From Rhodospirillales bacterium (lineage in GTDB: Bacteria > Pseudomonadota > Alphaproteobacteria > Acetobacterales > Acetobacteraceae), in the NCBI GenBank assembly GCA_025352915.1, contig JANXSA010000696.1, forward strand, positions 1-10,003: 10,003 nt of DNA. Direction: 5' to 3'. Shown here piece by piece: positions 4,126 through 9,914 of the stretch. A model generated the notes under the pieces. That model saw nothing but the letters and a program-made list of their open reading frames with translations, had not been told where the DNA came from and did no database searches. Position numbers and translations under genes: made by a program. Each line of letters begins with the position of its first letter. Position 1 is the stretch's first letter.

Positions 4126-4974
4126 ATGACTGGACGTTTCCTAGAAGGCCGGGTCCTCGAAGGCCGGGTCCTCGAAGGCCGGGTGGCCATCGTCACCGGC
4201 GCCGCCCACGGCATTGGCGCCGCCTGTGCCCGCGTCTATGCGCAGGCCGGCGCGCAGGTCCTAGTCGCTGATATCGACGTGGCCCAGGGCGAGGCGACGG
4301 TCGCGGCCATCAGCGAGGCCGGCGGCAATGCCCGGTTCATCGCCTGCGACGTGGGACGCAGCGCCGATTGCAGCGCGCTGGTGGCCCAAGCAGTCGCGGC
4401 CTTTGGGCGGCTGGATATCCTGCACGCCAATGCCGGGATCGAGCTGTGCCGCTCGGTGTGGGACACCACCGATGACGAGTGGGACCGCATCCTGGCGATC
4501 AACCTGTCCGGCAGCTTCTGGTGCGCGCGCGCGGCGATGCGGGTGATGCGCGATGCCGGACGTGGCGGCGTGGTGACCTTCACCGCCTCGCCGCATGCCT
4601 TCCTGACATCGCGCGAAATCGCCGCCTATGCCGCGACCAAGGGCGGCCAGGTGGCGCTGATGCGGGCGCTGGCGCTGGAGGGAGCGCCGTTCGGCATCCG
4701 GGTCAACGCGGTGCTGCCGGGAGCGACCGAGACGCCGATGCTGCTGCGCGAGGCCGAAGCCAGCGGCGATCCCGCCGCCCTGTTGCGGATTTTCGCCGCC
4801 GCCCAGCCGATGGGCCGGCTGGTGCAGCCGGAGGAGGTAGCGAAGGTCGCGGCCTTCCTGGCCTCGGACGCCGCCAGCGCGGTGACCGGCAGCAGCGTGG
4901 CGGCCGATGGCGGGCTGATGGCAGCGATCAATGCCGGGCCGGCGATTTCCTATACCGGGGAATCGCGGGGGTGA
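4126..4974 (+). CDS. SDR-family NAD-type oxidoreductase with triplicated N-terminal LEGRV
   Basis: This is a complete 282-residue classical SDR. It has the cofactor motif TGAAHGIG at 24-31, Asp49 at the end of the second strand (ADID, favouring NAD over NADP), HANAG at 100-104, and the catalytic set Ser155, Tyr168 and Lys172 in AAYAATK. The terminal GSSVAADGG marks the last strand. It would oxidise or reduce an alcohol/ketone in the cytoplasm; the substrate cannot be inferred. The ATG at 4126 has AGAGG 10 nt upstream; a TTG at 4108 is less likely. The oddity is at the front: residues 6-20 are LEGRV three times, where SDRs normally have one such segment before AIVTG. The 3' end meets the facing SDR with a 4-nt gap. 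Confidence 0.93.
   Translation: MTGRFLEGRVLEGRVLEGRVAIVTGAAHGIGAACARVYAQAGAQVLVADIDVAQGEATVAAISEAGGNARFIACDVGRSADCSALVAQAVAAFGRLDILHANAGIELCRSVWDTTDDEWDRILAINLSGSFWCARAAMRVMRDAGRGGVVTFTASPHAFLTSREIAAYAATKGGQVALMRALALEGAPFGIRVNAVLPGATETPMLLREAEASGDPAALLRIFAAAQPMGRLVQPEEVAKVAAFLASDAASAVTGSSVAADGGLMAAINAGPAISYTGESRG
4141..4185 (+). repeat. 15-bp tandem repeat, three copies, in the SDR coding sequence
   Basis: The units 4141-4155, 4156-4170 and 4171-4185 follow ctcgaaggccgggtc with one or two differences. Each encodes LEGRV in frame. Copy number changes would lengthen or shorten the protein N-terminus without breaking the frame. Confidence 0.95.
4942..4966. other. Hairpin inside the 3' end of the SDR gene at the convergent junction
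   Basis: Nine bases (4942-4950) pair with 4958-4966, with one G-T wobble on the plus-strand transcript and a 7-nt loop. It lies 5 nt before the SDR stop codon and 12 nt from the end of the facing gene. No T-run follows on either strand, so a classical intrinsic terminator is unlikely. It could protect 3' ends or slow polymerase where the two transcripts collide. Confidence 0.35.
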
Positions 4975-7015: not shown

Positions 7016-7243
7016 TCAGGCGCGCTTCGGGCTGTGCAGGCCCTGGACCATTTCGGCCAGGATGGCGCGCATGGCCGCCTCGTCGACGCCGATCAGCACC
7101 GCATCCTCGAAGGCGTCCTGCATCATCTGGGCGAGTTCGGTGTGGTTTTCGGCCAGGGTCTTGAGCTTTTCCCGGCAGGACACCGGCGCGCCATCGGCTT
7201 GCGGCCAGATATTGGGCGGGCCAAGCTTGGGTAAAGTGGTCAC
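7016..7243 (-). CDS. Conserved-looking 75-residue orphan protein in the MlaD operon
   Basis: The gene starts with GTG at 7243, overlapping the MlaD stop as GTGA, and ends 2 nt before the next ATG. This tight packing on both sides is the main support for it. The protein is soluble, with no signal peptide or membrane span. It has an N-terminal extended part (PKLGPPNIWPQADGAPVSCREK) and then two likely helices with acidic content (LAQMMQDAFEDAVLIGV, MRAILAEMVQGL). One cysteine, Cys23, lies in APVSCREK. I do not recognise a named family, though I have the impression of seeing similar small proteins beside mlaD in Acetobacteraceae. Its position suggests a role connected with its envelope neighbours, but nothing in the sequence proves it. 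Confidence 0.75.
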   Translation of the reverse strand: MTTLPKLGPPNIWPQADGAPVSCREKLKTLAENHTELAQMMQDAFEDAVLIGVDEAAMRAILAEMVQGLHSPKRA

Positions 7244-7740
7244 GGCTTGGCGGCCGGCTTGTTCTGGTCGAGCTGGCGCTGGACGTTGCTGGACAGCTCG
7301 CCGACGCCGAAGATGAACTTGCCGAGCAATTGTTCCAGGCTGGCGGCGGACTGGGTGATGGTGAACTCGCCGCCATTGGCCAGGAACTTGTCCTCGCCGC
7401 CGGGCACGATGGCCAGCGACTTGCCGCCGACCAGGCCGTCGCTGCTGATCTCGGCGCTGGAATCGCGCGGCAGTTTCAGGCCGGGCTGCACGCTCATCAC
7501 CACCACCGCCTGATAGCTGACGGGATCGACGCTGGTGCTGGTGACGCTGCCGACGCGCACCCCGGCCAGGCGCACATCGGCGCCGACCGCCAGGCCGTCG
7601 ATGCGGTCGAACTTGGCGCGCAGGGTCATGCCGGAGACGGTGGCGCGGCCGGTATTGGCGACCGCGTAGCCGAGGAACACGGCCGCCGCGAGCAGCACGG
7701 CGGCGCCGGCGATCAGTTCGGTGGGGTTGCGCTGGGCCAT
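7240..7740 (-). CDS. mlaD: MlaD, outer-membrane lipid asymmetry MCE-domain protein
   Basis: The 166-residue protein has a single N-terminal membrane anchor at about 9-27 (LIAGAAVLLAAAVFLGYAVA) and an MCE domain at about 36-115. That domain includes FDRIDGLAVGADVRLAGVRVG and ISSDGLVGGKSLAIVPGG, the standard MlaD pattern. A short helical tail with VGELSSNVQRQLDQ follows. MlaD forms a hexamer at the inner membrane and binds phospholipid for the MlaFEDB transporter, which moves lipids between the membranes. The other mla genes are not in this window, so MlaD is separated from the transporter, an arrangement also known in other alphaproteobacteria. It starts 16 nt after the NDUFA12-like gene and overlaps the next gene by GTGA. 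Confidence 0.95.
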   Translation of the reverse strand: MAQRNPTELIAGAAVLLAAAVFLGYAVANTGRATVSGMTLRAKFDRIDGLAVGADVRLAGVRVGSVTSTSVDPVSYQAVVVMSVQPGLKLPRDSSAEISSDGLVGGKSLAIVPGGEDKFLANGGEFTITQSAASLEQLLGKFIFGVGELSSNVQRQLDQNKPAAKP

Positions 7741-7756: not shown

Positions 7757-8110
7757 TCAGGACCCGGGGGTCCAGGCCTCGTAATCGCCGGTAGCCTTGG
7801 CCCGCTTGCCGCCCTGGTAGTCGTGGCCGGCCGGACGGTAGCTGTCGGCGGTGCCGGTCAGGTTCGGCACGTGTGGCTTCTGCCAGGCCCGGCGGCCCTG
7901 TTCGGGCAGGGCGGCGTCCGTTGTATAGTGAAGCCAGCAATGCCACTCGGCCGGCACCTTGCTGGCCTCGGCGGCGCCGGTGAACATCACCCAGCGGCGC
8001 GCGCGCTCGCCCGCGCCGGCGCGCTTGTCCTCGTAATAGGTGTTGCCCGCGCTGTCGTGCCCGACGACGCGGCCATTGAACCAGGTGAACAGACGGGTGC
8101 CGATGGTCAT
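7757..8110 (-). CDS. NDUFA12-family complex I accessory subunit
   Basis: This 117-residue protein matches the NDUFA12 (B17.2) family. It has FNGRVVGHDSAGNTYYE at 11-27, RRWVMFTG at 38-45, VPAEWHCWLHY at 52-62, PHVPNLTGT at 79-87 and YRPAGHDYQGG near 91-101. Members are accessory subunits of the NADH:ubiquinone oxidoreductase of mitochondria and alphaproteobacteria, on the matrix/cytoplasmic side. They stabilise the peripheral arm rather than carry electrons. The gene is apart from any nuo operon here, as is usual for this subunit in bacteria, and heads the operon that continues with mlaD. The ATG at 8110 lacks a Shine-Dalgarno at normal distance, and a promoter -10 lies only 7 nt upstream. 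Confidence 0.93.
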   Translation of the reverse strand: MTIGTRLFTWFNGRVVGHDSAGNTYYEDKRAGAGERARRWVMFTGAAEASKVPAEWHCWLHYTTDAALPEQGRRAWQKPHVPNLTGTADSYRPAGHDYQGGKRAKATGDYEAWTPGS

Positions 8111-8202: not shown

Positions 8203-8211
8203 TTATCCACA
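8203..8211 (+). promoter_or_regulatory. Perfect DnaA box
   Basis: TTATCCACA is the strongest DnaA-box sequence known from enterobacterial oriC. It sits 11 nt before the TTGACA of the rightward promoter. Chance occurrence in a GC-rich 10-kb window is low, but only one box is seen. Confidence 0.5.
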
Positions 8212-8216
8212 GGATT

Positions 8217-8250
8217 TTGTGGTTGACACCCCCTTGGACCACAATATGCG
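8217..8250 (+). promoter_or_regulatory. Candidate promoter with overlapping inverted repeat for the NrdJ-like gene
   Basis: A perfect TTGACA at 8223-8228 is followed after 16 nt by a weak -10, TATGCG (8245-8250). An inverted repeat, TTGTGGT (8217-8223) and ACCACAA (8238-8244) with a 14-nt spacer, covers the -35 and the spacer. That is where a repressor would act. The arm centres are about two helical turns apart. The CACAATAT part is loosely like half of an NrdR box, but this is too weak to name the regulator. Confidence 0.4.
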
Positions 8251-8268
8251 GCTTTCCGAGTCGCACCG

Positions 8269-8287
8269 GGCGGGCTAGCATCCCGCC
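8269..8287 (+). promoter_or_regulatory. GC hairpin directly before the NrdJ-like start codon
   Basis: GGCGGG (8269-8274) pairs with CCCGCC (8282-8287) around a 7-nt loop, ending one base before ATG 8288. No separate Shine-Dalgarno is present. The stem occupies the ribosome landing site, so translation from this ATG may be restrained. Confidence 0.45.
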
Positions 8288-9835
8288 ATGGAAAACGACC
8301 AGACGATCTCCTCCCTGCGTGGCGCCCCGATGCGCGGCATTGCCGCCTGGCGCGGCGTGCGCATGCGCCGCACCCTGGCCGCCGCCGATCCCGACAGCGC
8401 GCCGCGCCAGGTGGCGTTGCCCGCCGCATGGGAACAGCGTGCTGCCGAGGCGCTGGCCGGGCTGGCGACCGGCGAGGGTTCGGTCAGCGTGTCGGCCGCC
8501 GCCGAGGCCTGGGTCCGCCCGGTGGCCGAGCGGGGGCGGCGGGCTGGACTTCAGGAGGATCGCAGCCAGGACGCACTGGGCGAGGCGCTTCATGCGCTGC
8601 TGGCGAGCCGGCGCGGCACCGCAGGCGAGACGGTATGGCAAGGATTGACAACGCCGCGGCCGGGTTTCGCGCTCAACCTGCCGTCGTTCCATGACGTCGA
8701 GTACGGCTTCGACCATGCCGGATTTGCCGCCGCGGCCGGGTTGGCGATCACCGCCCTGACGCTGGCGGTGCCGATGGCCACGCGGCTGGCGGTGGGGATG
8801 CATGACCTCGCCGGGCTGCTCTCGCGGCTGGGGCTGGCCTATGACAGTGCGGCGGCGCGCGATATCGCAGCGAGCCTGGCGGCGCTGTTGCAGGCATCGG
8901 CCTCGCTGGCCTCGGCGGAGATGGCGGAGCGCTTCGGCACCCAGGCGCAGGCGCGCCCTGCCCCGGCCGCGCCCGCGACCACGGTGCTGCCCGGGCTCGC
9001 CGAGGCAGCTCGGGCGGCGCAGGCCCAGGCGGCAGCGCGTTCCGGCCGGCGTCATGAGGTGGTGTGCGCCCTGGCCGCCCCTGATCTGGCCGCAGCGCTG
9101 CTCGGCGTGGAGACCGGGGGGATCGCGCCGGCCTTCTCGCCGCTGGACGATACCGGTGCGCTGACCACCACGGCGCGCAGTTGGCTGGCGGCGCGCGGGA
9201 TGACCGCCGAGGCGGCACTGGCGGCATTGCTAGGGGGGCAATCGCCCTTCGCCGCCGCCAGCCCGCAGGCCCATGCCGCCATGCATGACGCCGTCGCCCC
9301 GTTCATGGACGAGGCCACTTCCCGCCCGGTCCAGGCCGGGCTGGCTGCTCCGGGAACCCGCCGCGAGTTGCCGGCACGGCGCGCCGGCTACACCCAGAAG
9401 GCCGCCGTTGGCGGGCACAAAGTGTTCCTGCGCACCGGCGAATACACCGACGGCAAGCTCGGCGAAATCTTCATCGGCCTGCACAAGGAAGGCCCGGCCT
9501 TCCGCGGCCTGATGGATAATTTCGCCGTGGCGGTCAGCCTCGGGCTGCAGCATGGCGTCCCGCTGGAAGCCTTCGTCGAAGCCTTCACCTTCACCCGCTT
9601 CGGCCCGCACGGCACCGTCGAGGGCGATGCCGCGGTCGGCCGGGCAACCTCCCTGCTCGACTACGCCTTCCGCAACCTCGCCGTGAACTACCTCAACCGC
9701 ACCGACATCCCAGAACCGCAGGACGAAGAGGCCGACACCATGGGCGACGGCCCCCGCGACCGCGCTCCCCTCCTCCCCGGCCTGCTGGACGGCCCCCGCC
9801 CGCGCCGCAGCGCCCTGCGCCTGGTCGCCAAGTAA
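8288..9835 (+). CDS. NrdJ-derived protein lacking the catalytic core of class II ribonucleotide reductase
   Basis: The 515 residues line up with two ends of NrdJ. Residues 40-120 ([11 protein letters not shown], then [16 protein letters not shown] and ETVWQGL) echo the NrdJ N-terminal domain up to its 'NSPVWFN' point. Residues 130-210 ([30 protein letters not shown]) correspond to the late barrel, and [11 protein letters not shown] at 273-283 to the 'TGIEPDF' segment. Residues 367-475 are a well-kept NrdJ C-terminal domain: [32 protein letters not shown] and FTFTRFGP. The N-C-E catalytic centre is absent and the whole protein has one cysteine (260), so it cannot reduce ribonucleotides by the known mechanism. 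Databases may label such proteins as B12-dependent reductases. A regulatory or nucleotide-binding role is inference. The ATG at 8288 fits; no Shine-Dalgarno is seen. Confidence 0.85.
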
Positions 9836-9837
9836 TG

Positions 9838-9914
9838 GAAAAAAGTTTTTGCTTCTTTTTTCAAAAAGAAGTGCTTGTTCTTTTTTGAAAAAAAGAACCA
9901 AAAAACTTTTATCC
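9838..9914 (+). terminator. AT-rich cloverleaf-like terminator or intergenic repeat
   Basis: Starting 3 nt after the NrdJ-like stop, an outer stem (9841-9850 with 9901-9910, perfect over 10 bp and extendable) encloses two hairpins: cttcttttt/aaaaagaag (9852-9860 with 9863-9871) and gttctttttt/aaaaaagaac (9877-9886 with 9889-9898). Loops are tight, so the innermost pairs must open. T-runs and A-runs occur on both strands, so it could stop transcription from either side. Low GC sets it apart from everything around it. I recall similar elements recurring after genes in Acetobacteraceae, but cannot verify that here. Confidence 0.65.

Follow-up and report, generated by a model that had tools for sequence, protein, structure and literature searches.

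A conserved, predicted non-catalytic descendant of the class II ribonucleotide reductase gene nrdJ in Acetobacteraceae

The locus and its promoter

The window, by which we mean the whole 10,003-nucleotide stretch of DNA analysed here, carries the gene of interest on its forward strand together with the upstream elements and divergent neighbours listed in Table 1. The open frame is intact from an ATG at 8288 to a stop at 9835, and the translation confirms the initial annotation's count of a single cysteine in the 515-residue product. The NCBIfam model of NrdJ, NF005736, whose curated cut-off is 1737 bits, matches this protein at 1.8e-68 and 231 bits, with the best stretch pairing protein residues 357-490 with model positions 968-1103, and Pfam places PF02867 at residues 166-285 and TSCPD at residues 371-465. 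A frameshift or assembly error as the source of this architecture was ruled out, since 73 of 80 named loci hold a complete open frame with the same architecture.

Table 1. Features of the locus in window coordinates
Feature	Position	Strand	Evidence
NrdJ-derived pseudoenzyme, 515 aa	8288..9835	+	profile matches; alignment with NrdJs
N-terminal NrdJ segment, retained (aa 21-66)	8348..8485	+	alignment; 23% mean identity to NrdJ
Barrel segment kept downstream of the deleted NPCSE/CNLA region (aa 122-218)	8651..8941	+	PF02867; profile matches to PDB 7b9q and 1xje; alignment
Second retained barrel block (aa 236-345), APTGTIG segment replaced	8993..9322	+	alignment
TSCPD / IscU-like C-terminal domain (aa 356-475), without Cys	9353..9712	+	TSCPD 2.7e-8; 65% identity to NrdJ; AlphaFold2 model
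Disordered basic tail (aa 481-515), at the place of the NrdJ zinc finger	9728..9832	+	tail pattern; pLDDT < 50
NrdR-like box 1, CCACAGGATTTTGTGG	8207..8222	+	consensus scoring; conservation
NrdR-like box 2, a degenerate copy at a spacing of 32 bp	8239..8254	+	consensus scoring
-10-like TAGCAT, beginning 12 nt before the ATG	8276..8281	+	TANNNT recurrence
NDUFA12, divergent neighbour, also at the nrdJ locus of other families	7757..8110	-	locus comparison
MlaD, second neighbour common to the nrdJ locus	7240..7740	-	locus comparison

Three repeats were observed in the window. Directly 3' of the stop, positions 9837-9914 form an A/T-rich imperfect inverted repeat with 35-nt arms that are 71% complementary; a stretch resembling it also follows the homologue in L005, and it may be either a terminator or a copy of a dispersed repeat. 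Tandem repeats lie at 1752-1824 (18-bp unit, 4.1 copies) and at 4139-4184 (15-bp unit, 3.1 copies), the latter translated as repeated LEGRV close to the beginning of a short-chain dehydrogenase.

Upstream of the gene, a CCACAGGATTTTGTGG-like block followed by a degenerate second copy recurs at 72 of the 80 named loci. We scored such pairs against what we take to be the NrdR consensus and its box spacing of about 31-32 bp. The pair reaches a score of 20 or more at 70 of 78 loci (the other two of the 80, with less than 150 bp of upstream sequence, were left out), against none of 780 random windows and five of 780 mononucleotide shuffles. At 49 of the 78, the best-scoring pair is spaced by 32 bp; the pair in the window scores 22. 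When six genomes were scanned with the box-pair pattern, four gave one match each and two gave none, as did the reversed control. NrdR is present in 56 of 60 genomes, and was not found in the window's own MAG, which is 69% complete. The mean best pair score is 21.4 upstream of nrdA (18 loci) and 22.2 upstream of nrdJ (13 loci), both from windows longer than the control's. Overall, the window carries an NrdR-type box pair at the regulon spacing, and the gene is a candidate member of the NrdR regulon.

At the same time, control by NrdR does not appear to be general, because several groups of loci score low or at control level: eight of the 78, 14 of the 21 loci of a second set (the other seven reach 20), the nrdA of the same genus (L127, with a score of 19), and the reduced nrdJ genes of other families described below, among which that of G378 scores 21, equal to its control maximum, while none of the rest rises above its own controls. 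The second set consists mostly of a divergent small-genome clade, which we take to be the acetic-acid bacteria. No support is drawn from L120, L125, L126 and L196-L198, because AT-rich loci score high by chance; the control means of L196-L198 are about 18. These loci bear directly on one alternative, that the protein has a job outside dNTP supply, its promoter being just inherited. The second-set loci that fall below the threshold and nevertheless keep the protein are what such a job would predict, and strong conservation of the pair at 70 of the 78 other loci is not; moreover, the neighbours hint at no other pathway, because they are those of the nrdJ locus. We consider this alternative rather unlikely, if worth keeping in view.

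By eye, a stretch reading GTTATCC(A/C)CC(A/T)TATCC... recurs upstream of L146, L148, L149, L151 and L162-L164, where the box pair is unrecognisable. Closer to the gene, 66 of 79 loci have TANNNT at -12 or -13 from the chosen start codon and six of 79 have an SD-like sequence, a combination that suggests a leaderless mRNA, which we predict for the pseudoenzyme gene.

Descent from nrdJ and the parts that were lost

The initial annotation had described the protein as a remodelled NrdJ with its ends retained and its catalytic part gone, and had proposed alignment with the full-length enzyme. Aligned with 14 full-length NrdJs, the protein is a series of collinear retained blocks separated by large deletions, and the description holds: absent are the NPCSE radical site, the zinc finger, the APTGTIG segment and, of the barrel, both the first half and the end. 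The loss of APTGTIG and of that half of the barrel bears on the initial annotation's idea that the protein might sense nucleotides or cobalamin. Of 17 conserved NrdJ cysteine positions, defined as Cys in at least 12 of the 14 full-length enzymes, 15 align with gaps in every one of the 38 homologues, and the remaining two hold a Cys in 12 and in four of the 38. The radical-site Cys of NPCSE, and with it the N-x-C-x-E motif, is a gap in 38 of 38, as are C199 and C485 (L114 numbering), which we take to be the active-site redox pair of NrdJ, and all six Cys positions of the C-terminal zinc finger are absent in 38 of 38. What stands where the zinc finger was is a tail with the pattern P-x-L-P, then basic R-rich residues, then L-R-L-V, found in 65 of 73 homologues, the pattern having been defined after inspection of the tails. 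The C-terminal domain is the most NrdJ-like part, as had been claimed, with a mean identity to the NrdJs of 65% at residues 356-475 of the window protein versus 23-34% in the four other blocks.

The surroundings of the gene tell the same story. NDUFA12 stands divergently upstream at 71 of the 74 named pseudoenzyme loci with room for it; downstream, 62 of 69 have RidA and 54 of 63 have a FemAB-like gene. At full-length nrdJ loci of other families, NDUFA12 is divergently upstream in seven of 13, RidA and FemAB are downstream in one more, and five lack all four markers. A tree of 38 pseudoenzymes (16 hand-picked from the 80 loci, the window, and the 21 second-set loci) and the 14 NrdJs, built on 488 shared columns whose alignment is loose outside the C-terminal domain, splits the two groups with a bootstrap of 100 and a branch of 1.38. 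The shared neighbours and the tree split argue for reduction of nrdJ in place, and descent from nrdJ is supported by locus, alignment and tree alike. The earlier suggestion of a captured domain with a new job is thus not sustained, the gene being instead nrdJ itself, reduced at the shared NDUFA12 locus. Judged from sequence comparison, it is close to certain that the product descends from nrdJ, is conserved and non-catalytic, and is still encoded at the nrdJ locus.

AlphaFold2, given an alignment of 74 sequences (the 73 complete loci and the window, the seven incomplete loci of the 80 being left out), returns a confident fold with a pLDDT of 86.7 and a pTM of 0.70, in which residues 1-15 and 481-515 are disordered and the C-terminal domain consists of four strands followed by helices. 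Sequence searches of the PDB gave barrel matches and one weak unrelated match, and none for the C-terminal domain; an hhalign comparison of that domain with a single E. coli IscU sequence gave no significant signal. In section 2.4 of PMC9669993, AlphaFold2 models lead the authors to call the C-terminal domain of the long class II reductases IscU-like; they state that its role in these enzymes has not been reported, and they link the split NrdJb to the same domain. Because it is homologous to the NrdJ C-terminus, the C-terminal domain of the pseudoenzyme would be this IscU-like domain. An IscU-type Fe-S scaffold, by contrast, was ruled out for lack of Cys ligands: residues 356-475 of the window protein are Cys-free, and four of the 73 homologues have any Cys in the domain (seven of the 21 second-set loci, by a cruder cut).

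The same cysteine counts weigh on the idea of an NrdJb-like redox subunit that re-reduces the active site of a reductase. The split NrdJb combines this domain type with a zinc finger (PMC9669993, section 2.4), and according to PMC4520616 the P. aeruginosa NrdJb works by disulfide exchange. In the pseudoenzyme, the zinc-finger positions are Cys-free throughout, Cys is as rare in the C-terminal domain as just described, and the redox-active C-terminal Cys of NrdJb is not conserved in the homologues. We therefore find this idea scarcely credible.

Distribution, selection and the reductases of the hosts

A profile of the N-terminal 351 residues matches 115 of 120 genomes that were drawn from the order and all belong to Acetobacteraceae. 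Three of the 115, from genus g112, match weakly, the gene being very divergent there. It was not found in five of the 120, namely four genomes of genus g83, including G090 (Acidibrevibacterium fodinaquatile), and G094 (Formicincola oecophyllae). NDUFA12 is still present in all four g83 genomes, and in G090, the one g83 genome inspected, a ketoacyl synthase occupies the place expected for the gene. A plasmid search returned 16 records, in which the listed matches are limited to query residues 357-486 and none reaches 80% coverage.

All segments of the gene are under purifying selection. Gene-wide dN/dS is 0.089-0.215 (Nei-Gojobori) in seven pairs of a single genus; some sequences occur in more than one pair, so the pairs are not independent, and four of them have a dS of 0.68-0.87. 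The initial annotation had suggested that selection acts on the C-terminal part and proposed a comparison of segments. With 0.00-0.14, the C-terminal segment has a lower dN/dS than any of the other four non-tail segments in six of the seven pairs; the exception is the closest pair, with 0.086 versus 0.070-0.083 in three other segments. A decaying relic without function could explain the five genomes in which the gene was not found and its divergence in g112. It could hardly explain the low dN/dS, the 73 complete frames, the conserved promoter or the confident predicted fold, and we regard a relic as very improbable. Sporadic, decaying homologues, which would have spoken against the initial annotation, are not what these genomes hold.

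That annotation had also called for a search of the genome for an intact nrdJ or nrdAB. In the window's own genome, a class I NrdA lies at the end of a contig; neither NrdB nor a second NrdJ-type match besides the pseudoenzyme was found in the MAG, at its 69% completeness. Across 100 genomes of the family, PF02867 matches 99, the pseudoenzyme itself included; an NrdA-type match of 250-274 bits, like that of the window's own genome, is among the listed matches in 90; and NrdB (PF00268) is present in 93, in one by a partial match. A full-length NrdJ frame appears among the listed matches only in G081 (loci L183 and L178), where a 1199-aa NrdJ lies away from the NDUFA12 locus and the pseudoenzyme sits at the NDUFA12 locus 25 kb off. 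G101 has the pseudoenzyme and a 759-aa class II enzyme. NrdB was not found in G081 or G101, and an NrdA-type match is absent from their listed matches. Most pseudoenzyme hosts thus have class I NrdAB, and two genomes show class II only. G021 keeps the pseudoenzyme with another class I pair; at L145 in this genome, a 926-aa class I NrdA adjoins NrdB, versus the usual 640-aa NrdA of the family.

Retention in G081, G101 and G021 indicates that the pseudoenzyme is not tied to one RNR class in the genomes examined. With a single match in its own MAG and full-length NrdJ listed only in G081, the suggestion that it assembles with or regulates full-length NrdJ finds no support as a general role. A dedicated regulator or inhibitor subunit of class I NrdAB would fit the prevalence of NrdA and NrdB among the family genomes, and the box pairs upstream of nrdA, whose mean comes from windows longer than the control's, would fit as well. 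Against it, G081, with its full-length NrdJ, and G101, with its 759-aa class II enzyme, both retain the pseudoenzyme with no NrdB found and no NrdA-type match listed; we judge a dedicated class I subunit improbable.

Reduced nrdJ genes in other families and a role for the C-terminal domain

A profile of the full-length protein matches 134 of 192 genomes of the class. Outside Acetobacteraceae, most listed matches fall in frames as long as a full-length NrdJ, at 1180-1367 aa; those of G341, G360 and G383 lie in shorter frames or at contig ends and do not enter the count that follows. Among the matches listed, at least six genomes of five other families carry a shortened nrdJ (L201, L200, L199 and L196-L198), a count that is a lower bound. 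The reduced products measure 663 aa in G277, 807 aa in G345, 912 aa in G378 and 278-282 aa in G276, G367 and G043. NDUFA12 adjoins five of these six genes, and RidA and FemAB adjoin that of G378. NPCSE is kept in none of the six and the TSCPD/IscU-like domain in all six, and the proteins of G043, G345 and G378 also keep a cysteine ribbon. A wider alignment, in stretches that are poorly aligned, places Cys of G345 in the C199, C682 and C845 columns and Cys of G276 and G367 (L196/L197) in the C199 column. A second match in G378, on contig C13, was ruled out as a full-length NrdJ, being 99.9% identical to the same reduced gene over the 758 aa present there.

In a tree of the C-terminal domain, the G378 protein joins those of Acetobacteraceae (support 97), G345 joins G276 and G367 (71), G043 joins one intact NrdJ (93) and G277 stands apart. 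An AU test does not reject one origin of all reduced forms (p = 0.051); several reduction events are argued for by the differing deletion patterns, whose end products are 515, 663, 807, 912 and about 280 aa long. The 912-aa protein of G378 may be an intermediate.

Overall, the account we favour, and to which we give an even chance, is that the pseudoenzyme is an ancestral nrdJ that was reduced in place, became non-catalytic and retained a second function of its C-terminal domain. Suppose that class I NrdAB took over in the ancestor of the Acetobacteraceae. That ancestor could then have dispensed with the reductase activity of NrdJ, but not with the second function of the IscU-like domain. The barrel would have shrunk to a scaffold carrying that domain, and the disordered basic tail would have replaced the zinc finger. 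Through NrdR, expression of the pseudoenzyme could be coupled to that of the reductase under dNTP shortage. As to partner and biochemical action, we infer that the IscU-like domain would bind a partner not specific to one RNR class and serve in dNTP supply or use, as an adaptor or a regulator.

Somewhat more tentatively, and a little short of an even chance in our estimation, the IscU-like domain may perform a conserved function that depends neither on nucleotide reduction nor on the class of RNR. Alphaproteobacteria that exchange NrdJ for another reductase would then often keep nrdJ and pare it down around this domain at its own locus; this would have happened several times and given a new class of RNR-derived pseudoenzymes. 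A class-independent role is suggested by retention of the pseudoenzyme in G081 and G101, NrdB being absent from the matches in both, and on the sequences compared a second, class-independent function of the domain is our best reading of the retention pattern. In this context, evolution appears to have separated the IscU-like domain from its enzyme: the domain survives loss of the enzyme in most of the Acetobacteraceae, and other lineages seem to show the same survival. The locus would thus provide a cellular, in-place example of the passage from reductase to pseudoenzyme, with the G378 protein as its possible intermediate. An earlier description of the pseudoenzyme was not found in the literature searched, whose coverage mostly excludes subscription journals and preprints, and the available part of PMC3019208 contains nothing on the family.

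Among known systems, the NrdJb of Pseudomonas aeruginosa is alike in carrying an IscU-like domain outside the catalytic chain, as described in PMC9669993; it differs in keeping its zinc finger and redox Cys and in serving NrdJa, whereas the pseudoenzyme is seen without an NrdJa partner. NrdJ itself (NF005736) shares with the pseudoenzyme its locus, the collinear segments, a C-terminal domain that is 65% identical and, at part of the loci, an NrdR-type promoter, but at about 1200 rather than 515 aa it has NPCSE, the active-site Cys and the zinc finger, and ends in a different C-terminal tail. Further afield lie UL45 and M45, betaherpesvirus R1 homologues of class I RNR origin. As far as the descriptions at hand extend, these too are inactive relatives of an RNR large subunit with non-catalytic roles; they are viral and act on host signalling, unlike the pseudoenzyme, and the likeness is one of descriptions rather than of sequences.
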